From Acidocella aquatica (GTDB taxonomy: Bacteria > Pseudomonadota > Alphaproteobacteria > Acetobacterales > Acetobacteraceae), in contig NZ_BSOS01000042.1 of assembly GCF_030160635.1 (NCBI RefSeq), positions 1 to 32,779 of the forward strand: a DNA stretch of 32,779 nucleotides. Reading direction: 5' to 3'. Below are positions 6,549 to 31,017 of this stretch, piece after piece. Within the stretch, counting starts at the first letter, position 1. Each line of letters starts with the position of its first letter. A model generated the notes under the pieces. It had not been told where the DNA came from. It saw only the letters and a program-made list of their open reading frames with translations, and made no database searches. Both the position numbers and the translations under genes were made by a program.

Positions 6549-7282
6549 GTGGGCTATGGTGAAATTAACAATAGGATCGTGTCTACAGGCACGGAATCCC
6601 TCAGAAGGTCAGACCGGTTCACCAGTCGCAATGGCCCGGGGAGAGGTGTTTGAGTTCTTGGTGATCGCCCGCTGTTCGGCCGGCTCCATGTAAAATTCTC
6701 GAGAACCGGTACGAGTGGCGGTACCCGCGCCTCCAGCCCCTCCAAACCTGAACAGACAAACCAGTTCCCAGGCTCCCTGTGCTGGTAGTGTAGCGGCGGA
6801 CGAATTTCGCACCGGCGGTGCGGGTATCGGCTACCGCAAATCGGTCAAAAGCCTTTTGCATCGCCTCGTCTTCGGCCACCGAAAGCGCCGTACTCGCGAG
6901 ATACTCGCCCTTCCGGCACACCCTGAGCAACGGTCGATCCTCCACATCGGCAGCACCGGCCTGATCGGGCCGCAGGCGAAGGATGGAACCGGGAAATGCA
7001 AATGGACGCGGATTCCGCGGGTAAAAACGCCGCCGTTCGCAAGATCATCGGCCATTCGCATTCGGGTGAGCAAAGAAATTGAAATGGAAAGAACGAAGAA
7101 AAGAACGCCATACCGCTTACGACGAGCGCGCCACAAGGGGTTGTCGCGCGAGCGCTCCCGCGTGCCGAAGCACGCGCCCTTGTCCCGCGCCCGCGCAGCG
7201 GTCGCCTGGAGAAATTGATGAAAGAGAAAAGCCGAAACCGGCGGATCTCCAACCCATCGAATTTCAACTGGAGAACTCTTCC
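6549..7282. other. 730-base gap: possible decayed minus-strand gene plus hairpin leader
   Basis: No single open frame here is convincing. On the minus strand between about 7063 and 6610, protein-like stretches appear in different frames, for example GEYLASTALSVAEDEAMQKA near 6900-6840 and EFYMEPAEQRAITKNS near 6690-6645, suggesting a frameshifted relic. From 7076 the plus strand carries a polypurine tract and then a G+C-rich leader to the TOPRIM gene. In it, ACAAGGG (7133-7139) pairs with CCCTTGT (7177-7183), and a perfect CGCGTG/CACGCG hairpin (7159-7176) abuts the second arm. The leader is open in frame with the TOPRIM gene back to 7079, but the ribosome binding site favours the start at 7283. 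Confidence 0.5.
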
Positions 7283-8236
7283 ATGACCCGGCAAGATGAC
7301 GAATTGGAACAGCTTCGCAGCTCGGTGAATTGCGGCACAATACTGGAGCGCCTGGCTTTTGGCTGGAGCCTCGACAAGACAGAAAGTACCAGGCGGGCTC
7401 TGAAATACCGCCGTGGCCCGGGCGAAATCATCATCGTCAACCATGACGGGAAAGGCTGGTTCGACCCGCAGAGCGATGCGAAAGGGGATATCTTCAACCT
7501 TGTTCAACATCTTGATCCTGGGCTCAATTTTGGTCATGTGCGCAAGCAATTACGCCGCGTTGCTGGCATCGCACCGGCTTATCCGGAGCTGCAGAAGACC
7601 TCCAACGCAATAACCGTGACGAAACCCCCGGCCGAACGCTGGGCGGCACGCCGGCGTCTGAGCCGTGGCTCTCCCACCTGGCGCTATCTCAACGAGACCC
7701 GCTGCCTGCCCGAAAAAATCCTGGCGGCGGCCGATGCCGCCGACGCGGTCCGCGAGGGCCCTTATGCCAGCGCTTGGTTCGCGCATCGCAACCAGGGCGG
7801 CAGCCTGACGGGCATTGAGATGCGCGGCCCGAATTATCGCGGCTTCTCAGGCGATGGAACCAAGACCCTTTTCCGGTTGCCCGGTGGCAAGGGGCCGATG
7901 TCAAGGCTTGCGATCTTTGAGGCGCCGATCGACGCGCTCAGTATGGCGGCATTTGAACATATCCGGGGTGACACGCTCTACGTGGCAACCGCCGGTGGAA
8001 TCGGGCCTGCCACCGTGATTGCGCTGACCCAGCTGCTGAACGACCTTTCAAGCCGGGCCGGCGCAGTTGCCGCCGTCGGCACGGATAATGATCCGCCCGG
8101 CGAGCGTCATGCCAAGCGGCTCATTGCAATGATCGAGGCGGCGAACGTGCCTTGGGAGCGATTGATACCGCCGGACGGCGCCAAGGACTGGAATAAATTT
8201 TTGCAGGTCCAAGCGGGCAGGGGAGACGACCAATGA
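7283..8236 (+). CDS. DUF3991/TOPRIM-domain protein (primase-like)
   Basis: This is a 317-residue protein. The N-terminal 100 residues resemble the DUF3991/CHC2-like region (GKGWFDPQSDAKGDIFNLVQ). The C-terminal half is a TOPRIM fold with the conserved Glu at about 213 (LAIFEAPIDALS) and the Asp pair at 268 and 270 (VGTDNDPPGE), the metal-binding signature of primases and topoisomerases. Proteins of this kind are frequent on conjugative plasmids and are thought to act in plasmid DNA processing or priming. No primase polymerase motif beyond TOPRIM is seen, so activity is uncertain. The start was chosen at ATG 7283 because GGAGA sits at a proper distance. The stop overlaps the next start (ATGA), showing translational coupling to the HD protein. 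Confidence 0.82.
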   Translation: MTRQDDELEQLRSSVNCGTILERLAFGWSLDKTESTRRALKYRRGPGEIIIVNHDGKGWFDPQSDAKGDIFNLVQHLDPGLNFGHVRKQLRRVAGIAPAYPELQKTSNAITVTKPPAERWAARRRLSRGSPTWRYLNETRCLPEKILAAADAADAVREGPYASAWFAHRNQGGSLTGIEMRGPNYRGFSGDGTKTLFRLPGGKGPMSRLAIFEAPIDALSMAAFEHIRGDTLYVATAGGIGPATVIALTQLLNDLSSRAGAVAAVGTDNDPPGERHAKRLIAMIEAANVPWERLIPPDGAKDWNKFLQVQAGRGDDQ

Positions 8237-8895
8237 AAACAATACGCGCCTGGGTGCGCCTCAGCCCTTCAGGCCGGCAACTGAATCTGCTCGATCCTGA
8301 TCCAGATACCTGGAATGACGCCGACGTCGCGGTTGGCCTGTCCCGGACCTATCGCTGGGGTGGCCATTCGGCCTGGGATTTACCGCTCTCCGTCGCGCAG
8401 CATAGCCTTACGGTTTTGGCGATTCGACAAGCGCAGCCTGGCGCGAAGCTTACGAGGGGTCAGGCGTTGCGGGAGCTTCTGCATGATGCGGATGAAGGGT
8501 TTCTGTCCTTCGACTGCATTACCCCGGTCAAACCGCATCTCGGAGACGGGTATGCCAGTCTTGTCGCACGCCTACAGGCTGCCATCGTCACACGCTATCA
8601 GCTGCCCGCCTGGTCAGCCGATGAACATGCACAGCATAAACAGGCTGACCGGCTGGCTGCGGCGAGCGAAGCACTGAATGTCGTGGGCTGGAGCGCGCAC
8701 GATATCCGCCACACCCTTGAAATCGAAACGCCTCCACTCTCACGCGATCCCCTGACAACGCCGGTCGGGATGCGGGCCTGGCAGCCCTGGCCGCCGCAGC
8801 TCGCCGCCGAACTATTCCTGCAGGAGCTGACCAAACTCTCAGCGGGCCGGAACGGCCGAGGACCAGCCGGCGAAATGGAGGCGCCATATCCTTAA
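8233..8895 (+). CDS. HD-domain phosphohydrolase (YfbR/YfdR-like)
   Basis: This is a 220-residue metal-dependent HD hydrolase. The ligands are in the expected order: His57 (SVAQHS), His84-Asp85 (LLHDADE) and Asp139 (KQADRL). This arrangement is that of 5'-deoxynucleotidase-like HD proteins, which act on nucleoside monophosphates, and such proteins recur on plasmids and phages. The gene is coupled to the TOPRIM gene by a 4-base overlap, suggesting joint work in nucleotide or DNA metabolism after transfer. The TAA at 8893-8895 is followed in the same frame by 72 open codons, so the protein may once have been longer. Substrate is not deducible. Confidence 0.8.
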   Translation: MKTIRAWVRLSPSGRQLNLLDPDPDTWNDADVAVGLSRTYRWGGHSAWDLPLSVAQHSLTVLAIRQAQPGAKLTRGQALRELLHDADEGFLSFDCITPVKPHLGDGYASLVARLQAAIVTRYQLPAWSADEHAQHKQADRLAAASEALNVVGWSAHDIRHTLEIETPPLSRDPLTTPVGMRAWQPWPPQLAAELFLQELTKLSAGRNGRGPAGEMEAPYP

Positions 8896-9114
8896 CGATG
8901 CGAAGGAAAATTCTTCAGAGGGGCTAACGCCAGCCAGTTGCAGGCAGCCAATACCGATGGTCCCGTGCTGGTCTTCTCCGGGGCGGGTACCCACCGCATC
9001 GATGGCCGGCTTTACAAACAATGGAAGAAGCCATCATCCGGCAGCGCTCCGGCATCAAGCCAGTTGGGAGACAAAACGCTAGCCGATTGTGATTTACTCA
9101 AGAAATTTCAATAA
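8896..9114 (+). pseudogene. In-frame open stretch after the HD gene, possibly a detached C-terminus or relic
   Basis: Immediately after the HD stop codon the same frame stays open for 72 codons to the TAA at 9112-9114 and reads protein-like text, including DGPVLVFSGAGTHRIDG. There is no ATG, GTG or ribosome binding site that would start it separately. It could be a former C-terminal extension cut off by a nonsense mutation, or a relic of another gene. The family is not recognised. Confidence 0.3.
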
Positions 9115-9191
9115 AAATATAAAGATAATGAAATTTTTGCCGTGGTCGCCGGACCGGCCGCAACGATGTTTTGCGGTCCGCTCTGGTACGA

Positions 9192-13756: not shown

Positions 13757-13930
13757 GCCGGTAATCGTAATTGGAAATGAAAACATACAGGAAGCCGATT
13801 ACCGCAGCGCGGACCGCCCGGGCAAAGGGCGGGTCCTCGCCATGCTCGCCTGCAGGCTGCGCGTGGCTCTGGTCCCCCACGGCGAACGGTTAGGCGTTCG
13901 CGTGGGCCTTTGCCCGCCCGTCCCGGCCGC
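13757..13930 (+). promoter_or_regulatory. Structured leader upstream of ardC, shares sequence with the segment at 15650
   Basis: Nested inverted repeats are visible. CGGTAATCG (13759-13767) pairs with CGATTACCG (13796-13804). GGGCAAAGG (13820-13828) pairs with CCTTTGCCC (13907-13915). An inner hairpin (arms about 13876-13888 and 13895-13906) abuts the last arm. Between them GGGCGGGTCCTCGCCATGC and then GCGCGTGGCT recur, one base different in the first, in the leader at 15482-15812. The function is unknown. Candidates are a structured 5' UTR, a single-stranded promoter or a repeat element. Confidence 0.6.
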
Positions 13931-13959: not shown

Positions 13960-14922
13960 ATGGCTTACAAAAAATATCCATCCCAACCCAAACGTGATCA
14001 CTACCAGGAGGTGACGGATCAAATCGTCGCGGCACTTGAGCAGGGCATCATTCCCTGGCGGCGGACCTGGAATCAAGGCGCTTGCGGCATGCCGATGAAC
14101 TGCACGACCGGGCGCTTCTATCGAGGCATCAACACGTTGCTGCTCGGTTTGGCGCAGGCCATCAGCTTTGGGGATGATCCGCGCTGGTGTTCGTACCGCC
14201 AGGCGCAGGCTCGCGGCTGGCAAGTACGGGGCGGAGAACGTGGCAGAACCATCGTCTTTTACAAACGCATCCTGAAAAGCCAGGAGGCGCGTGACGATGG
14301 CAGCGTACCCTACTTCCAGCTCCTGCGTTTCTCGACGGTGTTTCATGCATCGCAGATCGAGGGCATCCCGGAATATATAAAGCCGGAGCCTGGCAGTGTG
14401 TCATGGCAGACCCCGGAAGCCATCGACACCATCATCGACAATAGCGGTGTCGATGTTCGCTATGGCGGTGGACAGGCATTTTACTCCCCATCCACCGACC
14501 GTGTGCAAATGCCAGTGCGAGAAGTCTTCGAAAGTCCAGAGGCTTTCGCGCAAACCGCAGCACACGAATTGGGTCACTATGCCGCGAACGACCGCCGGCT
14601 TGGCATAAGCGAAGGCGGGCGTTTCGGTTCGCGCGCGTACGCGGCGGAAGAGTTGAGGGTGGAAATCGGTTCCGCCATGGTCTGCTCGACCCTGGGCATC
14701 GACCCCGACATTTCCAACACGGCTGCCTATCTTGCGAACTGGTTGGAACGACTAAAAAATGATAATCGCGAGATATTCCGTGCCGCAGCTGATGCGCAGC
14801 GCATCGCGGATTATCTGCTCGGCTTCCACCCGGACTACGCCGCCTACATCGCCGGCCAAGGCCGGGAAGAAGCCGATGATAAAGGTACGGAGGATGATTC
14901 CGAAGTCCAGGAGGCAGCCTGA
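13960..14922 (+). CDS. ardC: ArdC-family antirestriction protein
   Basis: This is a 320-residue two-domain protein. Residues 10-130 match the ArdC N-terminal single-stranded-DNA-binding region (QIVAALEQGIIPWRRTW, FYRGIN, a Tyr/Trp-rich segment, VFYK). Residues of about 150-310 are a zincin-like metallopeptidase domain with HELGH at 202-206 and a downstream AEEL that can supply the third ligand. ArdC proteins of conjugative plasmids protect incoming DNA from host restriction. The ribosome binding site AAAGGAG sits before ATG 13960. Its stop overlaps the next start by one base. The position, just after a hairpin-rich leader and shortly before a DarB-like protein, fits an anti-restriction block in a plasmid leading region. 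Confidence 0.9.
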   Translation: MAYKKYPSQPKRDHYQEVTDQIVAALEQGIIPWRRTWNQGACGMPMNCTTGRFYRGINTLLLGLAQAISFGDDPRWCSYRQAQARGWQVRGGERGRTIVFYKRILKSQEARDDGSVPYFQLLRFSTVFHASQIEGIPEYIKPEPGSVSWQTPEAIDTIIDNSGVDVRYGGGQAFYSPSTDRVQMPVREVFESPEAFAQTAAHELGHYAANDRRLGISEGGRFGSRAYAAEELRVEIGSAMVCSTLGIDPDISNTAAYLANWLERLKNDNREIFRAAADAQRIADYLLGFHPDYAAYIAGQGREEADDKGTEDDSEVQEAA

Positions 14923-15481: not shown

Positions 15482-15812
15482 ATGAATTGACCGCATTTTT
15501 GAGCGCGTCTCAATAACCCGCTCCTTCTGCTGCCTCACGGCAGGGAAATGCGAATGCGATGGATCATCCAGCGTTCCAGCGCGCGGAATGAAATCAAAAA
15601 GGAGAGAAGAGAGAAAAACGAGGGGCGGGCGTACCACGCCGGCCTTGTCTGGCAAGGGGCGGGTTCTCGCCATGCTCGGCCGCAAGCGGCTTGCGCGTGG
15701 CTGCGATCCCACGCTGCAAGCAGCGCGCCCTGGCCAGCCTGCATCCGGCGCGGACGCGGGGGAGGGAGATTCGAGAAATATGGAATTCGGATCGCCACAT
15801 GGAAAGGAGCGC
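15482..15812 (+). promoter_or_regulatory. 330-base hairpin-rich leader, second copy of the ardC leader motif
   Basis: A polypurine stretch (about 15589-15635) is followed by CCTTG/CAAGG and then the shared block GGGCGGGTTCTCGCCATGC from about 15657, a GCCGC/GCGGC hairpin, GCGCGTGGCT, and a GCTG/CAGC hairpin. The hairpin after the shared block has different bases from the one at the equivalent place in the 13757-13930 leader (GCC/GGC there), yet both can pair. No supported gene lies here. GGAAAGGAG near its end serves the next gene. Confidence 0.55.
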
Positions 15813-16181
15813 ATGATGTTCGATCCAACGGAATACATCAAGAAAGCCAAAACGGTCGATGGCGGCCATCTGTCGATCGGCCGTGGCGGCTACACATTGC
15901 ACTACGCTCAAGGCAGCACACTCGGCGGCTACGATGTCGACAATATGAAGGCACTTTGCATCGAGGCCGGTTTGCCCGTCATCGATTCTCGGTGTGTCTC
16001 GTTCGATCTTGTTGCAGATTTGGCGATCAGCGGCCCGATGGCCGCCGTCGGCACCGCGCCGCGTTTCTTCATGTCGCGCGCCTTCTCCCATGTCTCCCTG
16101 GCCGAGTGGGTCGCGTCCTACCGCGCTGCCGGTGCTGAAGTCCACAACATGCCGGAGGTGTGTGATGAACCGGCATCTTAG
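15813..16181 (+). CDS. Hypothetical protein
   Basis: This is a 122-residue protein with GGAAAGGAG just before tandem ATGs at 15813 and 15816. It is Gly-rich early on (GGHLSIGRGGYTLHY, GSTLGGYDVDN) and ends with a helix around SHVSLAEWVASYRAAGAEV. No transmembrane segment or named motif is seen. It overlaps the following gene by 17 bases, so both are in one operon behind the hairpin-rich leader. The function is unknown. Confidence 0.72.
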   Translation: MMFDPTEYIKKAKTVDGGHLSIGRGGYTLHYAQGSTLGGYDVDNMKALCIEAGLPVIDSRCVSFDLVADLAISGPMAAVGTAPRFFMSRAFSHVSLAEWVASYRAAGAEVHNMPEVCDEPAS

Positions 16182-16567: not shown

Positions 16568-16586
16568 GCATTTGAAGGACACCAAA

Positions 16587-19500
16587 ATGCCCATGCCCCC
16601 GAAAGACAATTTCGACCTTTTTGCCAACGATTTGTTCGGCAGCACAATGCTGTCGTCCGATGCGATGATACCGATTGGCCTGATCCGGATTCCTATGAAG
16701 GAAGATCCGAACGAGCCCGACGAGAACGCACATCTCTATGACGATCCCGCGACGCGCGCTGCGTCCTCTCCCGTCGCCGAAAATGAGCAAAAGTTCGACG
16801 CGCGCAATTTCCGGCTCTCCGGCACGCGCAATCTCTCGGCGGGCTGGAAACACCGCGCCCAGGATAACCTTGCCGCGATCCGCCTGATGCAGCAGATCGA
16901 GGAGGAGGGCAGGGGAGCCATGCCCGAGGAACAGGCGCAGCTCGTAAAATTCTGCGCCTTCAGCAGCACCGATCTCGCGCAAAATGTGTTCCGCCGCGGG
17001 GCGGAGGAGCTCAAATCCGGCTGGGCCGAGATTGCCTTGGAGTTGGAGGCGCTTGTCTCGGCCGAAGAGCGCGCCGGGCTGATGCGGGCGACGCAATACG
17101 CCCATTTCACGCCGGAATACATCGTGCGTGCCATGTGGGCGGCTGTCTTGTGGCTTGGCTTCGCCGGCGGATCGGTGCTGGAGCCCGGCTGCGGCACCGG
17201 TCTGTTCATCGCCGGCAGTCCTGAGCATATCGCCCAGGCCAGTCATTTCACCGGGATCGAGGCCGACCCGATCACGGCGAAAATCGCCGCCCAGCTCTAC
17301 CCGGAGAGTGATATCCGCTTTGAGGATTTTACGCGCGCCAAGTTGAGCGGCGATTATGACCTCACCATCGGCAATCCGCCCTTCTCGGACCGCAGCCAGC
17401 GCTTCGCCGAGGTGAAGCCCGCGGTGGCGCTTTCGTTGCACGATTATTTCATTGCCAAATCCGTCCGCGCCCTGCGTCCAGGCGGCATCGCCGCCTTCGT
17501 CGTGAGCCGCTGGACGATGGATAAAACCGATTCCACCGCTCGACGCCTGATCGCGGAGATGGCGGATCTGCTCGGCGCCGTCCGCCTGCCCGAGCGCGCG
17601 ATGCGCCAGGATGCCGGGACCGACGTGGTGGTGGATGTACTGTTCTTCCAGCGGCGCGGGGAGGGTCAGCCCGGCAACGCCATGGCATGGCTGGATACGT
17701 CAGAGGCCGTCGCGCCGCTTGAGGATTCACCCGGCTTTGACGTGAACACCTTCTTCCTGGATCACCCCGAGATGGTGCTGGGCTTGCATAGCCGCACCAG
17801 CAGCCCCTACGGACTGGTTTACACCTGCAAAGGTCAAGCGACTGGCGGCGATTTGGAAGCCGCGCTGAACACCGCCCTGCAGGCGCTCCCCAGGGGCATC
17901 CACCAGCCGCGCACCGAGACCCTGCGCAAGCCGGGTGAGGCGGCCCGCAAAATCTACGCTGGCGGCGTCGCCGATGGCGCCACGGTGCGAGAGGGCAGTT
18001 ATCTGGTCATCGCCAACCGGCTGCATCAGGTCATCGACGGCATCGCCACGGAAATCCCTGTCAAGCGCGGCAAGGGCGAGGGCATCCCCGTCAAATCGGC
18101 TCATATCATCGATGCGATGATCCCGATCCGCGATGCGGTTCGGGCCATCCTGCGCGCCCAGGAGTCCAACCGGCCCTGGACCGAATACCAGCGGGCACTT
18201 CGCCGCGCCCATACCAAGTTTGTTCGCAACCATGGGCCAATTAACAAGACCGAGATCACCACGATCACGGATGAGGACACCGGTCAAACCAGGGAAATGG
18301 TGCGCCGGCCGAATATCGCGCCGTTCGCCGATGATCCGGACGTTTGGCTGGTCGCATCGATCGAGGATTACGATCAGGAGACGGGCAAAGCCCGGCATGG
18401 CGCGATTTTCACCCAGCGGGTGATCCACCCGCCAAAAGCCCCGGTCATCGTCACCGCGGCGGATGCCCTCTCGGTTTGCCTCCACGATACCGGCCGGGTC
18501 GATATCGAGTACATTGCGGAATCCCTTTGCATTTCCAGGCAGGAGGCCGAGGCCGCGCTTGGCCGTGCGGTGTTTCTCAACCCCGAGAATCGCGCCTGGG
18601 AGACGGCGGATGCCTATCTCTCAGGGCCGGTGCGTACCAAGCTCGCCGTCGCGCAAGCGGTGGCGGTGCTGGAACCGCGTTTTGCCGCCAATGTGGAAGC
18701 CCTGCAGGCGGCGCAGCCAGTCGATCTGAAGCCGTCCGAAATCACCGCACGCCTCGGCGCACCCTGGATTCCACCGAAGGTCATCGCGCTGTTCTGCAAG
18801 GAAATCCTCGGCGTCGAAACCGCGGTGCGGCATATCGCCGGGCTTGGCTCCTGGATGGTCGACAGAAAAGCTTTCGAGCAGGAGGCCAGCTCCGCCACCG
18901 AATGGGGCACGGCGCGCCGTCATGCCGGTCATCTCGTGGACGACGCGCTCAACGCCTCGATCCCGCAAATCTGGGACGTCTGGTACGAGGACGGGCAAGA
19001 GAGACGCAAGCTGAACCCGGAGGAAACCGAGGCCGCCAAGGAAAAGCTTTTTAAGATCAAAACCGCTTTTCAGAATTGGGTCTGGACCGAGGCGGAGCGG
19101 GCCGAAGAGCTTTCCAACATCTACAACGCCACCATGAACAACATGGTGCCGCGCCATTTCGATGGCTCGCATCTGACGCTGCCCGGCGCCAGCACCGTGA
19201 TCAATTTCTACCCGCACCAGAAGCGCGTTATCTGGCGGATCATCACAGCCGGCGGCACCTACATGGCGCATGCGGTCGGCTCCGGGAAAACATTCTCCAT
19301 GGCGGCGGCCGTCATGGAGCAGAAACGCCTGGGTCTGGTAAACAAGACCATGATGGTTGTGCCCGGCCATTGCCTCGCCCAAGCCAGCCGCGAATTCCTA
19401 CTTTTATACCCGACCGCCAGAATCCTGGTCGCCGATGACGTGAATTTCGCCAAGGCCAAACGCAAGCGCTTCCTGGCGCGCGCCGCGATGGGGGATTGGG

Positions 19501-21779
19501 ATTGCATTATCATCACGCATGCCGCCTTCCGCTTCATCCCGATCCCGGCCGCCTTCGAGCGCACGATGATTCAGGAGCAGCTCGATGCTTTTGAGGCGAT
19601 GCTCGACGACGTCGACAGCGACGACCGCATCAGCCGCAAACGGATCGAGCGGATGAAGGAAGGTTTTGAGGCGAAACTCGAGAACCTTGGCGAGGGCACG
19701 GATGATTTTCTGACGATCAGCGAGATCGGGGTCGACCAGATCATCGTCGATGAGGCGCAGGAATTCCGCAAGCTCGCCTTCCCGACCAACCAGACCACGC
19801 TGAAGGGCGTCGATCCGAATGGCTCTCAGCGCGCCTGGGATCTGTTCGTGAAAACCCGCTTCATCGAGACGATCAACGCTGGCCGGCCCCTGGTGATGGC
19901 CAGCGGTACGCCGATCACCAACACCATGGGCGAGCTCTTCACCCTGCAACGCTTCTTTGCCCAAGAAATCCTGGAGCGCATGGGCCTGCAGCATTTCGAC
20001 GGCTGGGCCAGCAATTTTGGCGATGCCCGCACCGAGCTGGAATTGCAGCCCTCCGGCACTTACAAGCCGGTCACGCGGTTCTCGGAATTCGTCAATGTGC
20101 CGGAGCTGATCGATATTTTCCGCAGCTTCGCCGACGTCGTACTGCCCGCCGACCTCCGCCAATACGTGAAACTGCCCAACGTTGCCACGGGCACGCGCCA
20201 GGTGATCACGGCGCAGCCGACCAAGATGTTCAAATCGTACCAAAAACATCTGGCTGCGCGGATCAAGGCGATCCAGGAGCGCAAGGGCAAGCCAGAAAAA
20301 GGCGACGACATTCTTCTCAGCGTGATCGGCGATGGCCGTCATGCCGCAATCGATCTGCGCTTTGTAGCCCCTTCGTTGCCCAACGACCCGGAGAGCAAGC
20401 TCAATCTGTTGATTGAAAACGCCTTCCGCATTTATGAGGAGAACAAGGACAATTTATACGAAATCGCGCCCGGGGTGCCTTACGAGACCGCCGGCGCCGG
20501 CCAAATGATTTTCTCCGATCTAGGCACGCTCGCCGTCGAGGCCAGACGCGGTTTCTCGGCCTATCGCTGGATCAGGGAGCAGCTGATCGCAAAAGGCGTT
20601 CGTGCCAGCGAGATCGCCTTCATGCAGGATTTTAAGAAACCCTCCGAGAAGCAGCGCCTGTTCAACGCCTTCAATGCCGGTCAGGTCCGCTTCCTCATCG
20701 GATCGTCCCAAACCATGGGGACGGGTGTGAATGCCCAGAAGCGTCTGAAGGCGCTGCACCACCTCGATGTGCCATGGCTTCCCTCCGACATTGAGCAACG
20801 CGAGGGGCGGATCATCCGCCAGGGCAATCAAAACGAAGAGGTCGAGGTTTACTGCTATGCCACCCTGACCTCGATGGATGCCCCGATGTGGGGGCAGAAC
20901 CAGCGCAAGCAGCGCTTTATTGAGGCGGCACTCAGCGGCGACCGCAGCATCCGGCGCCTTGAAGACGCTGGCAGCCAGGCCAACCAGTTCGCGATGGCGA
21001 AAGCCATCGCCTCGGGCGACCAACGGCTGATGCAGAAAGCCGGGTTGGAGGCCGAGATCGCGCGGCTCGTCCGGCTGCAGGACGCGCATATCGACAATCA
21101 AATGGCCGTTCGCCGCACCATTCAGGGTGCCAAGGCGTCCATCGAGCACAATCAGCAGCGCATAGTTGATATCACCGCCGATATCGCGCAGCGGGTCGAA
21201 ACCCGCGGCGACCACTTCGCGCTTGCCCTCTCCGATCGCCGGTTCACCGAGCGCAAGGCGGCGGGAGCGGCGATTTTGACCGCCATCATGGAGGCTGGCT
21301 GGGATGATACCAGCAAGATTGCCGGCGCATTTGCGGGATTCAAGTTTGGAATAAAACTCCACCGCGATCGCAAATTGCTGATCGAAGGGTCCGAATTCGT
21401 CATTCAGCGGCGCAATAAGCGGGACGTGCTGGAGATTCCGGAAAACCCGACGCCGCTTGGCATCATCGCGCGCCTGGAAGCCTATTTCGGTCGCATCGAC
21501 GCGGAGCTTGAGGAAGCCGAGCTCCGGGTGGCGGAAGGCACTCGCCGTGTCGCGGATTACGAACCGCGCCTCGGCGCGCCCTTCGATCTGCAAGGCGAGC
21601 TCGATGCCAAGATGGCCGAGTTGCGGGACATCGATATCGCGCTCGCGGAGACCAAGGAAGAGCAGACCGCGGAAGAAGATGAGTTCGCCGATATCTTCGG
21701 GCCGATCGGCCGCGCAGGCGATTGTGATGAGTTGGATGATACCAGCAGCGAAAACGCCGAGGGTGCATCCCCCGAATAA
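16587..21779 (+). CDS. DarB-like fused N6-adenine methylase/SNF2-type helicase
   Basis: This is a 1730-residue protein. The N-terminal part carries an adenine methyltransferase: the AdoMet site EPGCGTG near residue 198 and the catalytic NPPF near 262. The C-terminal half is a superfamily 2 helicase: AVGSGKT near 896, DEAQ near 1054, SGTP near 1105, and QREGRIIRQG near 1404. It is followed by a charged, probably coiled-coil tail. The combination and size match phage P1 DarB and its plasmid relatives, which protect entering DNA from type I restriction. AAGGA lies before ATG 16587. The frame is open far upstream, but the chosen start has the ribosome binding site. With ArdC nearby, it forms an anti-restriction block. 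A methylase-based epigenetic role is an alternative. Confidence 0.88.
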   Translation: MPMPPKDNFDLFANDLFGSTMLSSDAMIPIGLIRIPMKEDPNEPDENAHLYDDPATRAASSPVAENEQKFDARNFRLSGTRNLSAGWKHRAQDNLAAIRLMQQIEEEGRGAMPEEQAQLVKFCAFSSTDLAQNVFRRGAEELKSGWAEIALELEALVSAEERAGLMRATQYAHFTPEYIVRAMWAAVLWLGFAGGSVLEPGCGTGLFIAGSPEHIAQASHFTGIEADPITAKIAAQLYPESDIRFEDFTRAKLSGDYDLTIGNPPFSDRSQRFAEVKPAVALSLHDYFIAKSVRALRPGGIAAFVVSRWTMDKTDSTARRLIAEMADLLGAVRLPERAMRQDAGTDVVVDVLFFQRRGEGQPGNAMAWLDTSEAVAPLEDSPGFDVNTFFLDHPEMVLGLHSRTSSPYGLVYTCKGQATGGDLEAALNTALQALPRGIHQPRTETLRKPGEAARKIYAGGVADGATVREGSYLVIANRLHQVIDGIATEIPVKRGKGEGIPVKSAHIIDAMIPIRDAVRAILRAQESNRPWTEYQRALRRAHTKFVRNHGPINKTEITTITDEDTGQTREMVRRPNIAPFADDPDVWLVASIEDYDQETGKARHGAIFTQRVIHPPKAPVIVTAADALSVCLHDTGRVDIEYIAESLCISRQEAEAALGRAVFLNPENRAWETADAYLSGPVRTKLAVAQAVAVLEPRFAANVEALQAAQPVDLKPSEITARLGAPWIPPKVIALFCKEILGVETAVRHIAGLGSWMVDRKAFEQEASSATEWGTARRHAGHLVDDALNASIPQIWDVWYEDGQERRKLNPEETEAAKEKLFKIKTAFQNWVWTEAERAEELSNIYNATMNNMVPRHFDGSHLTLPGASTVINFYPHQKRVIWRIITAGGTYMAHAVGSGKTFSMAAAVMEQKRLGLVNKTMMVVPGHCLAQASREFLLLYPTARILVADDVNFAKAKRKRFLARAAMGDWDCIIITHAAFRFIPIPAAFERTMIQEQLDAFEAMLDDVDSDDRISRKRIERMKEGFEAKLENLGEGTDDFLTISEIGVDQIIVDEAQEFRKLAFPTNQTTLKGVDPNGSQRAWDLFVKTRFIETINAGRPLVMASGTPITNTMGELFTLQRFFAQEILERMGLQHFDGWASNFGDARTELELQPSGTYKPVTRFSEFVNVPELIDIFRSFADVVLPADLRQYVKLPNVATGTRQVITAQPTKMFKSYQKHLAARIKAIQERKGKPEKGDDILLSVIGDGRHAAIDLRFVAPSLPNDPESKLNLLIENAFRIYEENKDNLYEIAPGVPYETAGAGQMIFSDLGTLAVEARRGFSAYRWIREQLIAKGVRASEIAFMQDFKKPSEKQRLFNAFNAGQVRFLIGSSQTMGTGVNAQKRLKALHHLDVPWLPSDIEQREGRIIRQGNQNEEVEVYCYATLTSMDAPMWGQNQRKQRFIEAALSGDRSIRRLEDAGSQANQFAMAKAIASGDQRLMQKAGLEAEIARLVRLQDAHIDNQMAVRRTIQGAKASIEHNQQRIVDITADIAQRVETRGDHFALALSDRRFTERKAAGAAILTAIMEAGWDDTSKIAGAFAGFKFGIKLHRDRKLLIEGSEFVIQRRNKRDVLEIPENPTPLGIIARLEAYFGRIDAELEEAELRVAEGTRRVADYEPRLGAPFDLQGELDAKMAELRDIDIALAETKEEQTAEEDEFADIFGPIGRAGDCDELDDTSSENAEGASPE

Positions 21780-22333: not shown

Positions 22334-22587
22334 AGCCCGCCGCCACACGGCGACGCCCGACCAAGCCACGCCTCGCACCACCGTCATGAACTGCATTGTT
22401 GCTGGCATGAGGTGCGGCCGGGCACCGCTCCGCTCCATCGCCGCCTGCGCAACCCTGCCTCGCGCCCGCGAGAGCGGGCGTCAAGGCAGGACCGCTCGCC
22501 GGCAATGGTGCCCGTCCTCACCCCATGCACATCGCCCGAAGATCGCGGGAATTTTCCCGCGATCAAAATGACTGAAGGAAAACGAAG
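22334..22587 (+). promoter_or_regulatory. Structured leader upstream of parB with a 24-bp palindrome
   Basis: This 250-base stretch without a gene holds two clear structures. At 22454-22490, CCTGCC/GGCAGG arms enclose GCCCGC/GCGGGC arms capped by GAGA, a GNRA-type tetraloop. At 22541-22564, GATCGCGGGA and TCCCGCGATC form an almost perfect palindrome ending 23 bases before the parB ATG. The palindrome could be a ParB or other repressor operator, or part of a single-stranded promoter. The ribosome binding site AAGGA lies just after it. Confidence 0.6.
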
Positions 22588-24264
22588 ATGGAACTGAGAA
22601 AAGTCGATCCCCGCGTGCTGCTGGAAGATCCCAATAATACGCGCAGAACACAGGTTCACCCTGCCTATGACGATCAGCTGCTTGCCAGCATCATCGCCAC
22701 CAGCGGCCCGGTACAACCGCCCGTCATTAAGGAGCGTAATGGCATCCTCTACATCTCCGCCGGGCATCGCCGCGTAAAAGCGTGCATCCGTGCTGAGATG
22801 CCCGAAATCTACGTTCTCGTCGTCCAGTCCGACGAGAAGGCGGATATCATGGCCTCGCTGGCGGAAAACCTCGTTCGCCAGGGGCTCAACACCGTCGATA
22901 CCTGGCGTGCAATGGAAGCATTGATTGGCGCTGGCTGGACCGAGGATGCTGTTGCCACCGCGCTCAACCTGCCCGGCCGCACCGTCAAGCGCCTGCGCCT
23001 ATGCGGGAGCATCCACAACGCGGTTCTCGAACAGATGGCGAAGGGAGATGAGCCCAACGAGCGCGAGCTTCGCATTATCGCCTCGGCGCCGCGTGAAGAC
23101 CAGGCCGAAGCCTGGAAAAGCTTCAAGCCAAAGAAAAATGAACCCGTTGCATGGCACAGCTACGCGCGTTCCCTCGATAAACGGCGCATGTACGCCCGTG
23201 ATGCGAATTTCGACGACGCCACGGCAAAAGCCCATGGCGTCGTTTGGAGTGAGGATCTTTTCGAGCAAGGCGATCAGGACAGCCGGTACACCACCCAGGT
23301 CGATGATTACCTCGGTGCTCAGCACGAATGGATGGAGCATCATCTGCCAAAAAAAGGCGTCATCCTAACCGTCGGCACCGATGGCCAGCCCAAGTTGCCG
23401 CCGAAAGCCGTGCGTAACCACGGCAATCCGAAAAAAGCCGACATCATCGGTCACTATGTCGATGACCGTACCGGCAAAATAACCACCATCGCCTATTCCA
23501 TGCCGGCGGATAAGCCGGCTGCAAGCGGCAAGGGCAAAGGCAAGGCGGGCAATGCGCCGGCGCCTGAGGAGATCGCCCCGGCGCCCAAGACCCGGCCGCC
23601 AGTCACCCAGGACGGGCTGAAAATGATCGGTGATCTGCAAACCGATGCCCTGCACAAAGCCTTCGCTGAGGACGAGATCGACGATCTGACCTTGATCGGC
23701 CTGCTCGTGCTCGCCTTCGCAGGCAAGAATGTCGATGTTCGCACCGGCATTGCGAATGAGGAGCTGCGCGGCCACCATGGGCGCGAAATCCTCGCCGGCC
23801 GGATTACGGAAAACGGCATCCTCACCGCCGACCCCGACACGCTGCGCAAAGCCGCTCGGGATGCCCTGCAGATCGCGCTGGGGCTCCGGACCACCAATTA
23901 CGGCGGCAATAGCGGGCTCGTTGCCCGCATCGCCGGCGCCGCCGTCAACGCCGATCGTCATCTCGGTGGCATGGCCACCGAGGAGTTCCTCTCCTGCCTG
24001 TCCAAAGCCGAGATCGAGGCTGTCGCATCCGCCAACGGCATCCTGCCGAAACCCACCGGGAAGCTCACCCGCGCGGCTGTCATTGCCCAGTTTAAGGACG
24101 GTGATTACGTCTATCCCGGTGCGACATTCGGCCTTGCGGCTGATGAAATCGGCGCACATGCCGCGGCTGGAAATCCCCGCAAGCACAACTTCAGTGATGT
24201 CGAACCGGAGGATGGCGAACAACTTAACGATCCCGACGCGGCAGACCTGGAGGACGCCGCTTAA
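22588..24264 (+). CDS. ParB/RepB/Spo0J-family protein, no ParA neighbour
   Basis: This is a 558-residue protein. Residues 1-100 form the ParB N-terminal domain with the nucleotide-binding AGHRRVKA near 58-65 and AENLVRQGL near 92-100. A helix-turn-helix follows (EDAVATALNLPGRTVKRLRL, about 119-138). The remainder is a long extension with an Ala/Pro/Lys linker near 305-345 and an acidic tail. True partition ParBs are about 300 residues and sit beside ParA. This one is larger and solitary, as are ParB-like proteins in leading regions of conjugative plasmids. A role in early plasmid establishment or regulation is more likely than segregation. An intrinsic terminator follows. Confidence 0.88.
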   Translation: MELRKVDPRVLLEDPNNTRRTQVHPAYDDQLLASIIATSGPVQPPVIKERNGILYISAGHRRVKACIRAEMPEIYVLVVQSDEKADIMASLAENLVRQGLNTVDTWRAMEALIGAGWTEDAVATALNLPGRTVKRLRLCGSIHNAVLEQMAKGDEPNERELRIIASAPREDQAEAWKSFKPKKNEPVAWHSYARSLDKRRMYARDANFDDATAKAHGVVWSEDLFEQGDQDSRYTTQVDDYLGAQHEWMEHHLPKKGVILTVGTDGQPKLPPKAVRNHGNPKKADIIGHYVDDRTGKITTIAYSMPADKPAASGKGKGKAGNAPAPEEIAPAPKTRPPVTQDGLKMIGDLQTDALHKAFAEDEIDDLTLIGLLVLAFAGKNVDVRTGIANEELRGHHGREILAGRITENGILTADPDTLRKAARDALQIALGLRTTNYGGNSGLVARIAGAAVNADRHLGGMATEEFLSCLSKAEIEAVASANGILPKPTGKLTRAAVIAQFKDGDYVYPGATFGLAADEIGAHAAAGNPRKHNFSDVEPEDGEQLNDPDAADLEDAA

Positions 24265-24833: not shown

Positions 24834-25206
24834 GGCGGCGAAATGCGGAGAGATTTAGAAAAACCGTAGAAAGCAGATAAATATTAGAGAGAAAAAGTAC
24901 AAAATACTACGTCCCTGATGGGACGGCAAAAGCACATGCCGGCCACTCACATCACCTCGTGCTTCAAGCGGTCTGAACCGGCGCCGGATGCCGGTCTAGC
25001 CCGTGCTGCGCACGCCGCTTCGCGGTTGCAGGCCGCTTACTTCGCAGGGCCGTCCCCGCAAAAATCCGCGCAGACGCGCCCTGCTCGCGCGCAACCTTCC
25101 AGGCCAGACCGGCACTCGTCCCCGGTTCATTTTGACCGCACACGAGATGACGCGAGTGGCATCGGCCATTCGCCTCGCGCGTGATGAAATGAAAAGGATT
25201 ATGAAA
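24834..25206 (+). promoter_or_regulatory. Leader upstream of ssb with A+T-rich block and hairpins
   Basis: An A+T-rich, purine-rich block (about 24850-24908) contains possible promoter hexamers and ends in a perfect CGTCCC-TGAT-GGGACG hairpin (24910-24925). It is followed by a G+C-rich stretch with ACCGGC/GCCGGT and CCGC-TTCG-CGG hairpins. The last 30 bases are again purine-rich. The sequence ATCGGCCATTCGC near 25161-25173 also occurs near 7047-7059, before the TOPRIM gene. Open frames here are short and the conserved SSB start is at 25207. Confidence 0.5.
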
Positions 25207-25638
25207 ATGGCTGGTTCTGAAAACATGGTTATCCTGATGGGGAATCTCGGCAAAGACCCGGAAGTTCACACGACAGGGAGCGGCAATATGATTGTCAATC
25301 TTTCGGTTGCCACAACAAAATCATGGAGGGATCGCGATAGCGGTGAAAGACGCGAACGCACCGAGTGGCACCGCGTCGTAATCTATAGCGACGGGCTTGC
25401 CAAAGTTGCAGATAAATATCTGCACAAGGGCAGCAAAGTTTATCTTCAAGGTTCGTTGCAGACGCGCAAATGGACCGATAACAATGGCCAGGACCGTTAT
25501 AGCACAGAAATCGTGCTGCAACCTTATGATGGTAAGCTCATCATGTTGGATGGCCAAAATGCTCAACGCACTGGCGGCTCCAAAGCAGAAGCTTCGGCAC
25601 CCGCAAATGGTGACCTGGATGGCGAAATCCCGTTCTGA
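25207..25638 (+). CDS. ssb: Single-stranded DNA-binding protein
   Basis: This is a 143-residue SSB. The OB-fold starts at MAGSENMVILMGNLGKDPE and includes TEWHRVVIYSDGLAKVADKY and KVYLQGSLQTRKWTD. The tail ends in DLDGEIPF, the acidic tip that recruits replication and repair proteins. AAGG is nine bases before ATG 25207; an in-frame ATG at 25201 is too close to it. The 143 residues are a usual length for plasmid SSBs, shorter than many chromosomal ones. In leading regions SSB is expressed early to coat incoming single strands and limit the SOS response. The hairpin-rich leader before it fits that context. Confidence 0.93.
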   Translation: MAGSENMVILMGNLGKDPEVHTTGSGNMIVNLSVATTKSWRDRDSGERRERTEWHRVVIYSDGLAKVADKYLHKGSKVYLQGSLQTRKWTDNNGQDRYSTEIVLQPYDGKLIMLDGQNAQRTGGSKAEASAPANGDLDGEIPF

Positions 25639-26013: not shown

Positions 26014-26021
26014 TCGCAAAC

Positions 26022-26078: not shown

Positions 26079-26099
26079 AAAACCAACCAGGAGATTCCC

Positions 26100-26444
26100 A
26101 TGCAGTTACTGACTCCCGAACAACGCGAGACCATGCTCGCCAATGGCCGCCACTACCAGAGCGATCCGGATTTTGAACCGAAGCCCGTGGTTAAACTCTT
26201 CACGCCATGGGGCGCCTGCACCTGGCTGCTCACCGACCTTGATCCAGAAGATGAGGACATCGCAAGTGGACTTTGCGATCTCGGCTTTGGTGAGCCGGAA
26301 ATCGGCAGCGTCCGCATCTCCGAGATCGAGAGTATTCGCGGGCCAGGCGGCCTACGTGCCGAACGCGACGCCAACTTCGTCGCCAATGAAACCATCGGCG
26401 CCCACGCTGCCCGCGCCCGCATCGACGGGCAAATCCTCACCTAA
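26100..26444 (+). CDS. DUF2958-domain protein
   Basis: The 114-residue protein matches the small DUF2958 family common on alphaproteobacterial and gammaproteobacterial conjugative elements. It opens with LLTPEQRETMLANG, then PVVKLFTPWGACTWLLTDLDPEDEDIASGLCDLG, of which the segment VKLFTPWGACTWLLT is the family signature, and GEPEIGSVRISEIES. It fills the domain entirely. CAGGAG lies before ATG 26100. A strong terminator follows the stop. Its biochemical role is unknown. The family is typically found beside ArdC, ParB and SSB genes, as here. Confidence 0.88.
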   Translation: MQLLTPEQRETMLANGRHYQSDPDFEPKPVVKLFTPWGACTWLLTDLDPEDEDIASGLCDLGFGEPEIGSVRISEIESIRGPGGLRAERDANFVANETIGAHAARARIDGQILT

Positions 26445-26478
26445 CCTGATTTGCCCCTCACGCCATTTCCGTCAACCC

Positions 26479-26511: not shown

Positions 26512-26527
26512 CTTATGGAGCATCCCC

Positions 26528-27983: not shown

Positions 27984-28042
27984 AAAAATGGCCCTGAGCC
28001 GCGAAATCTGCTATTGCTGATCCCAAGTCCTGGAGATCAGTC

Positions 28043-28420: not shown

Positions 28421-29127
28421 CTTTCGATCCTTTTGGGGATTTTGATACAAAAGGATATTTGCGCAACCGCTTTGCGGACAAGCTGCCGGAAGTCGTCAAA
28501 CTCAAAGAGCATGATACTTTCCGGCGCCATCTCGGCGACGCGCTTGCCGCACTTGCCGCGCGCCCGTCTCTCAACTACCGCGACGTGCTCGATACTCATC
28601 GCCGCCTGTTCACGGATTATTATCCCTCGGCCGGGCAGGATCGCGCCGTGATTCTTCCCGATCAGGCCGTTGGCAAGGCAGGACGTTACGACCTTTTCGC
28701 TCACCCGCTCGATTGCCAGCGAGCCGTCGAACACGGCCTGATTCTCGGACAACAGATCGCCACCATGCGCCAAAAACCCGGAGAAGTGATTGGGTTATTG
28801 GCCTTCGGCCATCCCTTCCTCGAAGGCAATGGGCGCGTTCTGATGGTCGTTCACAGCGATCTCTCCAGACGGGCCGGGATGCATATTGAATGGGAGAAGG
28901 TTGAGAAAGAACCATACATCGCTGCCCTGACCATGGAGCTCGAAGGGCCAGGAGCAGGCCGCCTGGATACTTTCCTCGCCCCTTTTGTCCGGGATGGTGC
29001 CAAACAGCCCGCACAGACGGCAACGTTGATGGCACGCAATCCCGGCCTCGGGCGATCTTCAGCATCTAAACCAGGTACAAGCGATGACTCCTCACCGACG
29101 CCTCGGCAATCCGGGCCATCGCCATAG
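28417..29127 (+). CDS. Fic/DOC-family protein
   Basis: This is a 236-residue Fic-fold protein. The active-site loop is HPFLEGNGR at residues 132-140, with the catalytic His132 and the anion-hole glycines intact. Fic enzymes transfer AMP or other phosphate-containing groups to target proteins. The canonical motif continues with two residues and an Arg; here that position is Met (VLM), a change that may alter nucleotide handling or be normal in this subfamily. Residues after about 195 form a low-complexity Ser/Pro/Ala tail. It overlaps the putative antitoxin by four bases. A hairpin follows. It may act as a toxin-antitoxin module for plasmid maintenance. Confidence 0.85.
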   Translation: MTFDPFGDFDTKGYLRNRFADKLPEVVKLKEHDTFRRHLGDALAALAARPSLNYRDVLDTHRRLFTDYYPSAGQDRAVILPDQAVGKAGRYDLFAHPLDCQRAVEHGLILGQQIATMRQKPGEVIGLLAFGHPFLEGNGRVLMVVHSDLSRRAGMHIEWEKVEKEPYIAALTMELEGPGAGRLDTFLAPFVRDGAKQPAQTATLMARNPGLGRSSASKPGTSDDSSPTPRQSGPSP

Positions 29128-29149
29128 CCTGAACTCTCTTATTCAATGG

Positions 29150-29177
29150 CTCCCGCATTTTTTCGGAAATGCGGGAG
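29150..29177. terminator. Perfect 11-bp hairpin between convergent genes
   Basis: CTCCCGCATTT (29150-29160) and AAATGCGGGAG (29167-29177) pair perfectly around TTTCGG. It lies 22 bases after the Fic stop codon. There is no U-tract after the plus-strand arm, so it is a stabilising or weakly terminating structure rather than a classic terminator. The stretch from there to 29324 is G+C-rich and shows no gene. Confidence 0.5.
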
Positions 29178-29324
29178 GGATCGGCGTGTTCTGACTAAGA
29201 ATGGCCCCGGCTTCATCGGCAGCCAAGCCGCCCACGGGTCGCCACTGACACTAATGACTCGGGCGCCCGGCGCGTCTGCGCGGCCTGGGCGGTCCTGGTG
29301 CCCCATGCCGCGTCTGGGCGGGTT

Positions 29325-29552
29325 TCAGCCCCTCCCACCGCCTTGGCGGGCCGTTGCCCGGTTCGCCGCCTCGACAAGCCAGGCCCCCGCCTCCCGCGTG
29401 TCAAACGGCACCCATGGCTCGTGCATCTCCACCAAGGTCAAAGCCCGGCATTGGCCACGAGCAATCTCGCAAAGCCGGTTTGCCTCCAACGCTGCTCGGG
29501 CCGAGACATTTAGATGATGGTTGGCACGGCGGCCCAGTGCGAACGCGTTCAA
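29325..29552 (-). CDS. Small hypothetical protein with TTG start
   Basis: This 75-residue frame begins at TTG 29552 right after AAGGAGG, 12 bases downstream of the preceding minus-strand stop. The spacing to TTG is short, so a later start (for example GTG in the next few codons) is possible. The text is plausible coding sequence, with NVSARAALEANRLCEIARGQC and EPWVPFDTREAGAWL. It follows the 116-residue gene in a two-gene minus-strand unit. The family is not recognised. Confidence 0.5.
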   Translation of the reverse strand: MNAFALGRRANHHLNVSARAALEANRLCEIARGQCRALTLVEMHEPWVPFDTREAGAWLVEAANRATARQGGGRG

Positions 29553-29564
29553 CTCCTCCTTTTG

Positions 29565-29915
29565 CTAGGCATCGATCGCCATACGGCTCGCCCGATACGC
29601 TTCATCAGCCAGCCGCTTCGCCTCGATGCAAGCCGCAATCGCCGGCGCCAGCACTTCCTCACGCAACGCCGTGAAGAAGTTCCGGCGGGTCGCATTGCTC
29701 TCCGGCTCGACCATCGCCGCGAGATTTTGCGCCATGTCCCGATCCGCCGCGTCCCGTAGATCCGGATCAAAATCCTCGATCTCAAGAGCCTCGACCAGAT
29801 GCGGAATCATCCGCCAATCCGGCGCCAGGTCACACATCATCTCATAACTCGCACGCGCACGCTTCTCGACGGGGAAGCGGACTAGATTTTCGTGCCAAAC
29901 ACCTTCGATAAGCAT
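29565..29915 (-). CDS. Hypothetical acidic protein
   Basis: This is a 116-residue protein, MLIEGVWHENLVRF onward. ATG 29915 has a strong CAGGAGG at the right distance; the frame is open further upstream, but that extension lacks a ribosome binding site. The sequence is acidic and helical (HLVEALEIEDFDPDLRD, FFTALREEVLAPAIAACIEA). It probably pairs with the small TTG gene that follows. The function is unknown. Confidence 0.65.
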   Translation of the reverse strand: MLIEGVWHENLVRFPVEKRARASYEMMCDLAPDWRMIPHLVEALEIEDFDPDLRDAADRDMAQNLAAMVEPESNATRRNFFTALREEVLAPAIAACIEAKRLADEAYRASRMAIDA

Positions 29916-30028
29916 CGCAAGACCTCCTGTTGATGCGTCAAGCATAGAAGAATCGAAGACCAATCATCAAGCGATACCCTGTTGAAAATAGAAAATTTTG
30001 TTTCTCGTGGCGCTCCCGCGTCGCTTCT

Positions 30029-30280
30029 TTATCCGGCCGCCCGCCTGTCACCCTCCCAATCCTGGGGCGGGTCTGAAGAACTCCCGGCCTGGCCGTGTTG
30101 CGGCGGTTCCGGCTTTCCTTTTTGGCCGGGCTGCTGCCGTCGCACCTTGATGCGGCTGGGCAGCTTGTCGTGCTTCCATTCGCCCGATTCTGCAATGAAT
30201 CTCACCGCACCTGTTGCGCTGGAGACGACGGATCTGCACCCGCCTCGCGCGGCCTGTGCGGAATGCCTGGCTTTAAGCAT
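30029..30280 (-). CDS. Small basic hypothetical protein
   Basis: This is an 83-residue basic protein with AGGAGA and AAGG upstream of ATG 30280. The central text GAVRFIAESGEWKHDKLPSR followed by a Lys/Arg/Pro/Gln-rich tail looks like real coding sequence with G/C-ending codons. The opposite strand also has open frames, so strand choice is by codon pattern and ribosome binding site. It may bind nucleic acid through its basic tail. The function is unknown. Confidence 0.5.
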   Translation of the reverse strand: MLKARHSAQAARGGCRSVVSSATGAVRFIAESGEWKHDKLPSRIKVRRQQPGQKGKPEPPQHGQAGSSSDPPQDWEGDRRAAG

Positions 30281-30447
30281 CGAGCCTTTCTATTCTCCTG
30301 TCTGCGCCGCATCATCATTGCGCATCGGGTGGGTTCTCTGCCTCAACCTTGTTGCCTCCAAAATCCCGGCAAGGCGGAATCCGACTGACCGCCGGTAGAC
30401 CGGCAGGTGTTACCCTGGCCCTTCTCGGGACGGGCGCGGTTGCGTGG

Positions 30448-30681
30448 CTACCGATCAATCCGAGTTTTCCCGGATCGAAAATCTTCTGGCTCCAGCTCAT
30501 CGTTTTTGCCGAAGCGGCGCGGGATGCGGCCGGGCAATGCTGGCATGTTCCCGCCTGCGAGTTTGGTTTGGCGCCCCTTGCACGCGGCATGAAAGCGGGG
30601 AGGGTCCTCGTATGCTTTCGGCGCCTTCGCCACACCGAATGAACCTGATTGCAATAATACAAATACAGCGGTCTGTTCCAT
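30448..30681 (-). CDS. Possible small hypothetical protein
   Basis: A 77-codon frame starts at ATG 30681 and ends with the charged stretch FGKNDELEPEDFRSGKTRID. There is no clear ribosome binding site, and competing frames on both strands are of similar quality. It is listed because the start coincides with an arm of a 22-bp inverted repeat and the product composition looks protein-like. It could equally be non-coding. Confidence 0.3.
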   Translation of the reverse strand: MEQTAVFVLLQSGSFGVAKAPKAYEDPPRFHAACKGRQTKLAGGNMPALPGRIPRRFGKNDELEPEDFRSGKTRIDR

Positions 30682-30977
30682 GCCGGGATCGTCTTCGGTT
30701 CGCGCGGTCTAAGCCCCGTTCCGCCCGGCCTCCATCCCCGATTTGCAAGCAAATCGCCTGCGGTGGCGCGTCTGCTCGCTGTGGACCGGTAGCCGGTCGG
30801 CTCCGCCGTCCGCCTGCCGTTCCACGCCAGCGCAAAGCCAAGTTGCCCGGATCGCAGCCCAAAAGAAGGGCCGCGCTCCGCTCAACCCGGCTTCGCTTCG
30901 ACCGAGCACACACGCCAGGGAGGATGCCGCTCGGCCCGGGTCTTTTTTCGACAGCACCGAAGACGATGCCGGCATGG
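30678..30977. repeat. 22-bp inverted repeat bracketing a hairpin-rich segment
   Basis: The sequence at 30678-30699 reappears inverted at 30956-30977 with 21 of 22 bases matching (the arm ends read ACCGAAGACGAT and CCGGCATGG). The 256 bases between the arms are G+C-rich and contain GATTTGC-AA-GCAAATC (30740-30755) and a GACCGG/CCGGTC hairpin near 30781-30795. No transposase or gene is supported inside. It lies just upstream of the gene at 31018, so it may be its leader, a recombination site or a MITE-like element. Confidence 0.6.
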
Positions 30978-31017
30978 GGCCGACAGCTTCGGATTATTGA
31001 GAAGGTTCATTTTTATC

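Follow-up and report, generated by a model that had tools for sequence, protein, structure and literature searches.

The stretch of DNA analyzed here (hereafter, the window) is the entire contig C42 (NZ_BSOS01000042.1; 32,779 bases) of the 137-contig draft genome of Acidocella aquatica. According to gene calling, most genes between ~7.2 and 31.6 kb lie on the plus strand and form a block that encodes a DUF3991-TOPRIM protein, ArdC, a helicase/N6-methylase-like protein, a ParB_N protein, a single-stranded DNA-binding protein (SSB), a DUF2958 protein, and a Fic-domain protein, together with many small proteins of unknown function. Here, we describe hairpin-forming DNA elements located in front of genes of this block, whose conserved structures best fit the folding of the single strand that enters first during conjugation.

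Six plus-strand genes are central to our analysis. They encode the DUF3991-TOPRIM protein (7283..8236; Pfam PF13154 and PF13155), an ArdC-like antirestriction protein (13960..14922; PF08401 and PF18818), a small protein of unknown function (15813..16181; supported by its open reading frame and coding score; 122 residues, or 133 from an ATG at 15780, where the gene caller starts it) that matches no Pfam, NCBIfam, or PADLOC family, a ParB N-terminal-domain protein (22588..24264; PF02195 at E 1.6e-5, 1 bit under the cut-off, with homologues annotated as ParB), SSB (25210..25638, or from 25207 according to the gene caller; PF00436), and a protein of unknown function (31018..31623) that is conserved across several such blocks (tblastn homologues in loci L008, L010, L012, L089, L108, and L147). 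The initial annotation had placed all six on the plus strand, which the gene calls confirm, each behind a gap of 150 to 370 bases. Measured to the preceding called gene, the gaps bear this out for ArdC (205 bases), the 15813 gene (331), ParB (254), and SSB (373), but those ahead of TOPRIM (734) and the 31018 gene (~1.1 kb) are longer than claimed. The same gene run includes the helicase/N6-methylase-like gene (16584..21779, plus strand; 1,731 residues; Pfam Helicase_C, with Eco57I below the cut-off), whose product has matches in 2,007 plasmid records, with at least 80% of its length covered in 975; the block is therefore of a common plasmid kind.

The segments upstream of ArdC and of the 122-residue gene resemble each other in blastn and are members of a structured, covarying DNA family, which we named family A. 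DNA similar to the ArdC element was found in 10 plasmid records, and 9 of the 10 best places lie under no annotated feature. We described the family with a covariance model (R1, 86 positions), for which 73 exact-pattern instances were reduced to 61 with full flanks and to 52 after removal of sequences more than 92% alike; 53 sequences were trimmed and 41 used, and the core of the model is partly imposed by the search pattern. The window elements (13819..13916 and 15649..15737, both plus strand) score 74.6 bits (E 9e-15) and 73.6 bits, respectively, each being itself a building sequence of R1. The 41 diverse sequences fold into 28 pairs, arranged as an outer stem followed by a long inner stem that bears a variable hairpin and by a second hairpin; the covariation of this structure is 0.331, compared with 0.097 for shuffled alignments and 0.04-0.09 when the structure is slid; 150 cells changed on both sides of a pair and only 7 on one. 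Among 102 model hits (96 distinct) from 82 sources, covariation reached 0.413 versus 0.108, with 433 double changes, in a 96-row alignment that was fitted to R1 and so leans to the model. The inner stem, fixed by the pattern in the 41-sequence set, varies on both sides at 5 of its 7 pairs in the model-hit set, and one T-G (U-G) pair is kept in 91 of 95 cells.

Family A is found repeatedly in blocks of the Acetobacteraceae type. When genome contigs were scanned with the exact pattern, 66 stretches emerged, whose titles are alphaproteobacterial in 57 cases, name Proteobacteria only in 4, and belong to other groups in 5; two metagenome-assembled genomes, named Nitrospinia and Scalindua, have AT-rich forms of the variable hairpin. 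The family is not universal, given that a strict-filter class search found the element in 2 of 337 genomes and a set of relatives in 10 of 41, both counts including the A. aquatica genome itself. In that genome, 14 long-contig stretches and 7 transfer-contig stretches gave no R1 hit at E 0.1.

The direction and position of the element relative to genes were assessed for 42 R1 hits, a set that includes close relatives and some R1 building sequences and leaves out two L090 duplicates, a weak L081 hit, two L009 hits, and one L107 hit; 8 of the 42 overlap a called gene. For 40 of them, the next called gene is on the same strand, and in 27 of these it starts 42-165 bases on. The 44 downstream proteins that we picked by hand (from 26 of 31 genes of the A1 class, the ArdC gene of the window, and 17 plasmid genes) include ArdC (4), helicase (4), ArdA (3), SSB (2), C5 methylase (2), ParB (1), ParA (1), LPD29 (5), and LPD30 (5). 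Hence, outside the window too, a structured element is located ahead of ArdC, ArdA, SSB, ParB, DNA-methylase, and helicase genes.

Other elements precede the remaining genes. Family B, a hairpin of the type CAAGGG...CCCTTG, is located upstream of TOPRIM (7134..7182, plus strand) and was found 10 times in the loci examined, with a single Roseomonas plasmid accounting for 6 instances in its block; it precedes TOPRIM, ArdC, and helicase genes, among others, and the next gene is on the same strand in 9 of the 10 cases, one of which rests on a gene call overlapping the element. Long hairpins that fold best on the template (minus) strand precede ParB (22400..22545), SSB (24930..25185), and the 31018 gene (30678..30985; 308 bases). 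The same gene position is held by different element types across plasmids: the ArdC position has family A in the window and family B in L009, the SSB position a long hairpin in the window and family A in L012, and the 31018 position a long hairpin in the window and, in L010, family A 94 bases upstream of the gene.

Comparison with related plasmids indicates how these folds are kept. The ParB segment retains 183 of 188 bases in a relative, where the start of the ParB gene retains 410 of 450. Two relatives retain the SSB hairpin at 92% and 86% identity, compared with 64% for their ssb coding DNA, and the 101 consensus pairs of this hairpin contain 8 G-T, 1 A-C, 7 other mismatches, and 0 compensatory changes, so that the fold is kept by conservation and G-T changes. 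By comparison, the 31018 hairpin is 47% identical to its counterparts in two near-identical relatives and shares a fold with them, which compensatory changes maintain (21 in 116 consensus pairs, along with 16 G-T, 3 A-C, and 21 other mismatches). Since Alifold picks the pairs allowed on a given strand, these G-T counts are biased, and consensus energies offer the fairer comparison; they favor the template over the coding strand for SSB (-85.5 versus -63.6), the 31018 gene (-73.5 versus -53.1), and ParB (-63.0 versus -51.6). The ArdC segment retains 143 of 153 bases in L015 (gene, 357 of 455), and in L040 conservation is higher in the 15813 segment than in the start of the gene next to it. The TOPRIM comparison excludes L015, in which the gene start lies beyond the locus.

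We folded the six segments as single-stranded DNA and compared each with 100 dinucleotide shuffles. The ParB (22400-22545), SSB (24930-25185), and 31018 (30678-30985) segments yielded coding/template z values of -2.76/-6.67, -4.72/-7.04, and -6.53/-11.36, respectively; a rerun of these three with 60 other shuffles yielded -3.3/-5.8, -3.6/-8.0, and -8.7/-9.9, so the z values, including the strand gap at 31018, are rough. The description of all six segments as hairpin-rich thus holds in terms of energy for these three, but not for TOPRIM (7133-7215; -1.3/-1.3), ArdC (13805-13930; -2.2/-2.3), and 15813 (15640-15770; -0.1/-1.3), which are unexceptional. For the latter three, the evidence of structure beyond chance comes from sequence and covariation in other plasmids rather than from energy.

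Further analysis addressed which strand folds. The template z is lower in 10 of 11 SSB- and ParB-upstream segments from the window and related plasmids. Of the gaps between co-directional genes (one duplicate gap dropped) that have a minimum z below -3, 20 of 24 from the blocks (18 of 22 without the window) and 7 of 7 from own-genus loci with a family A hit are more stable on the template strand. The corresponding controls were 4 of 8 on two long contigs of the same genome (C5 and C94, presumed chromosomal, with C94 carrying a type IV secretion system-like locus) and 1 of 2 in transfer regions; without C94, the control comprised 19 gaps, and the structured ones were template-lower in 4 of 7. 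As a yardstick, the ardB, ssb, and 63-64 kb segments of the F plasmid gave template z values of -5.3 to -6.3.

Strand and pair composition also bear on two explanations that invoke RNA. Leader RNA elements at the 5' end of the mRNA (attenuators or antiterminators) would suit both the position just before start codons and the kept U-G pair of family A; the long hairpins, however, fold worse on the coding strand, and outside the kept pair the G-T cells of family A are as few as its A-C cells (24 and 23, counted in 80 of the 102 rows after removal of those more than 90% alike). Structured RNAs are usually richer in G-T than in A-C pairs, and this scarcity of wobble pairs looks DNA-like. We therefore consider leader RNAs improbable. 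Structured antisense RNAs transcribed from the minus strand would likewise give better minus-strand folding, but they appear more improbable still: family A is poor in wobble pairs, and apart from suhB no Rfam family matched the window or L009, L010, and L012 at its gathering score. Specifically, Rfam 15 gave 0 such matches in the window, the one hit in 5000-32779 (E 4.6) being below its gathering score, and only two suhB matches in the three other loci. These suhB/mmgR RNA matches (L009:24944-25019 and L012:15198-15272, minus strand) lie just after the helicase/methylase gene of two Roseomonas plasmids.

The direction in which the block would be transferred can be approached through its relatives. 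L088 is a 13 kb plasmid in which a family A element precedes parA. Its nic motif (1 mismatch, with an inverted repeat) falls between the T4CP and mobC/mobQ genes, on the minus strand; with the polarity that we take this motif to have as to which strand is transferred, that strand would be the first to enter, in the direction of the element. In L153, an Agrobacterium pAt plasmid, a nic motif with 3 mismatches and an inverted repeat lies on the expected strand, so placed that TOPRIM, helicase, ParB, and DUF736 would be leading genes and the entering strand the one from which they are read; a shorter nic core also matches the other strand nearby. Two Ti-type plasmids have the block facing the traC/D/G - traA junction, and L010 shows the same layout ahead of traA. 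In four MOBF plasmids, judged by gene layout without a located oriT, the block and mobF share a strand, with mobF some 20-45 kb downstream, and in F like gene kinds run towards oriT. The nic consensus is given in PMC3832669. A search for MOBQ-motif oriT sequences recognized no convincing site in L008, L010, L014, and L087, and the A. aquatica genome encodes three MOBF relaxases on other contigs, unlinked to that of the window. Homology thus supports the block as a putative leading region read towards oriT; since genes point towards oriT in these relatives, the entering strand would be the template, and we infer from them that the minus strand enters in the window.

Comparable systems have been described. 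Like the Frpo/ssi elements of F-like plasmids, the window elements include long imperfect hairpins upstream of ssb and of further putative leading genes, with similar copies within one leading region (two F copies are 89% alike), and these genes would likewise be read towards oriT. Unlike the window elements, Frpo carries a -35/-10 pair, as stated for Frpo1 and Frpo2 in PMC9849209, and family A is short and branched. With the leading-region anti-defence islands described in PMC11541004, the block shares genes for anti-restriction, methylase, and SSB proteins, which would here too lie close to oriT and on the T-strand. That study (Samuel et al. 2024) describes a search for promoters via Frpo similarity and the -35/-10 consensus, and its main text does not contain the words Alphaproteobacteria, Proteobacteria, or Rhizobi. 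Ti/pAt-type and Acetobacteraceae plasmid backbones have the same TOPRIM, helicase/methylase, ParB, and ArdC kinds of gene in the same direction relative to traA or mobF. No description of such elements in Alphaproteobacteria was found in the literature searched, most subscription journals lying outside it. In sequence, blastn of four F segments against the window gave only short, weak matches (best E 0.016), and R1 found nothing at E 1 on the F stretch (L148). A separate idea, that strand-specific mutation leaves a G+T skew on the T-strand, was dropped, as skews differ between plasmids.

We propose, tentatively and at slightly below an even chance, that the hairpin elements allow early expression of leading genes from the incoming strand, in an Frpo-like manner without relation to Frpo in sequence. 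The block would be the first-entering region of a conjugative or mobilizable plasmid, with oriT expected beyond the right end of the window, and each leading gene or small operon would tend to have a hairpin-forming DNA element in front. During conjugation, the minus strand, the template of the block genes, would enter 5' end first and single-stranded; its hairpins would form local duplexes at which transcription could start before the complementary strand exists, with the result that ArdC, the methylase/helicase, ParB, and SSB would be made at once, and expression would be shut off once the DNA is double-stranded. We infer all three parts of this scheme, namely the leading geometry of the window, the transcription start at the hairpin, and the shut-off.

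Several observations weigh against early expression from the incoming strand. The first concerns promoters: the -35/-10 pair that the initial annotation expected in the hairpins did not emerge, as in 87 family A sequences the conserved TTG of the outer stem is not followed by a -10-like AT-rich hexamer at a distance of 16-18 bases, and sigma70-like sites in 12000-31100 number 6 versus 6.1 expected, in an E. coli-type scan that looser alphaproteobacterial promoters might escape. The lack of a -10 box would suit the main rival explanation, in which complementary-strand synthesis on the incoming strand, rather than transcription of genes, would start at the hairpins (as ssi/primosome-like or primase sites), perhaps served by the plasmid TOPRIM. 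Template-strand folding, several copies per leading region, and the presence of a TOPRIM protein in the block also agree with priming. We nevertheless judge it unlikely, because the elements precede individual genes in gene orientation, 27 of 42 lying 42-165 bases ahead of the start codon, which priming alone would not need.

Also adverse to early expression are the class-wide comparisons. Block gaps as a class are not clearly more structured than the C5 and C94 control gaps: template z is below -3 in 22 of 79 block gaps versus 6 of 26 control gaps, and coding z in 13 of 79 versus 7 of 26. Hairpin richness per se was accordingly rejected as proof, and the unremarkable class-wide energy meant that the observation needed comparative evidence. 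The strand difference over all gaps relative to the control is weak (p = 0.035 pooled; p = 0.06 for the main block set alone), family A has no strand preference by its G-T and A-C counts, and rhizobial blocks have no strand bias (template lower in 5 of 8). In four rhizobial blocks, a search for family A, which is found in Acetobacteraceae-type blocks, gave nothing better than E 0.26. In F, 6 of 8 cuts lean to the template; the two exceptions, which are more stable on the coding strand, are 61986-62400 and a 479-base cut before ssb. The ArdC segment is less kept in L040 (140 of 153) than its gene (423 of 450).

The remaining adverse points concern direction. Of the 67 exact-pattern instances with a downstream gene, only 42 have it on the same strand (among all 73: 42 same, 25 opposite, 6 none), owing to a subclass, A2, which has a 3' extension, makes up 38 of the 73, and mostly does not lead genes (10 same strand, 22 opposite, 6 none). 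A2 is present in L014, L018, L019, L029, L048, and L057, among others, and its scanned neighbors (n = 46) include 4 T4CP and 3 resolvase genes. Its varied contexts, with 14 of 38 copies 26-85 bases after a same-strand gene, might suggest mobile palindromic repeats (REP/MITE-like) accumulated in plasmid gaps, as might two identical inverted copies in L014. In this 25 kb Shinella plasmid, near-identical inverted family A copies (17205-17290, plus; 21917-22002, minus) flank a stretch with parA/parB and toxin-antitoxin genes. Such an origin has little probability in our view, since 40 of 42 R1 hits share the orientation of the next gene and the same gene position can hold one hairpin type in one plasmid and another type elsewhere. 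As for transfer, the window's own oriT is not visible within the contig, which ends at 32779; the leading-region claim of the initial annotation, backed by the nic motifs of L088 and L153 and by the MOBF and Ti-type layouts, meets an exception in L008, whose MobA/MobL relaxase gene faces the block. Given the exact-pattern count of 42 of 67 and the weak pooled strand test, we slightly lowered our confidence in early expression from the incoming strand.

A few further features accompany the block. A near-perfect palindrome with 11-base arms just before ParB (22541..22564, read directly) is a possible operator or terminator. Downstream of SSB, a 25-base inverted repeat (84%) lies at 25861-25942, and in a sliding-window scan the plus-strand fold z reaches its minimum (-5.5) at 25801-25950. 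Among the small genes, only the DUF2958 gene (26100..26444, plus strand; PF11171, E 3.9e-38) and the gene for the Fic-type protein (28417-29127), which also matches the PADLOC candidate PDC-S04, have a good family match; the ten small-gene proteins searched matched no NCBIfam family, and 9 of the 10 no PADLOC family, the exception being the Fic-type protein. For the remaining small genes, the anti-defence role suggested in the initial annotation is thus conjectural. A HipA-like kinase gene (5154-6548) directly precedes the block, and the gap ahead of it contains a 22-base inverted repeat (91%) at 4688-4761. A second block, on contig C52 of the same genome (L115, L147, L165), carries ParB and helicase genes, a family A element, and a 31018 homologue.

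Enterobacterial plasmids are known to have single-strand promoters. A broader possibility, which we regard as rather doubtful at present, is that alphaproteobacterial conjugative plasmids have their own families of single-strand hairpins, with neither Frpo sequence nor standard boxes, that express each leading gene from the incoming strand, possibly via a dedicated factor for core recognition. The genes of the block probably help the plasmid to settle in a new cell. A structured, covarying element ahead of such genes (ArdC, ArdA, SSB, ParB, and methylase) in Acetobacteraceae and other Alphaproteobacteria would allow early expression to be tested in recipients of plasmids other than enterobacterial ones, and, as most small leading genes match no family, the element alone would flag unknown leading genes.

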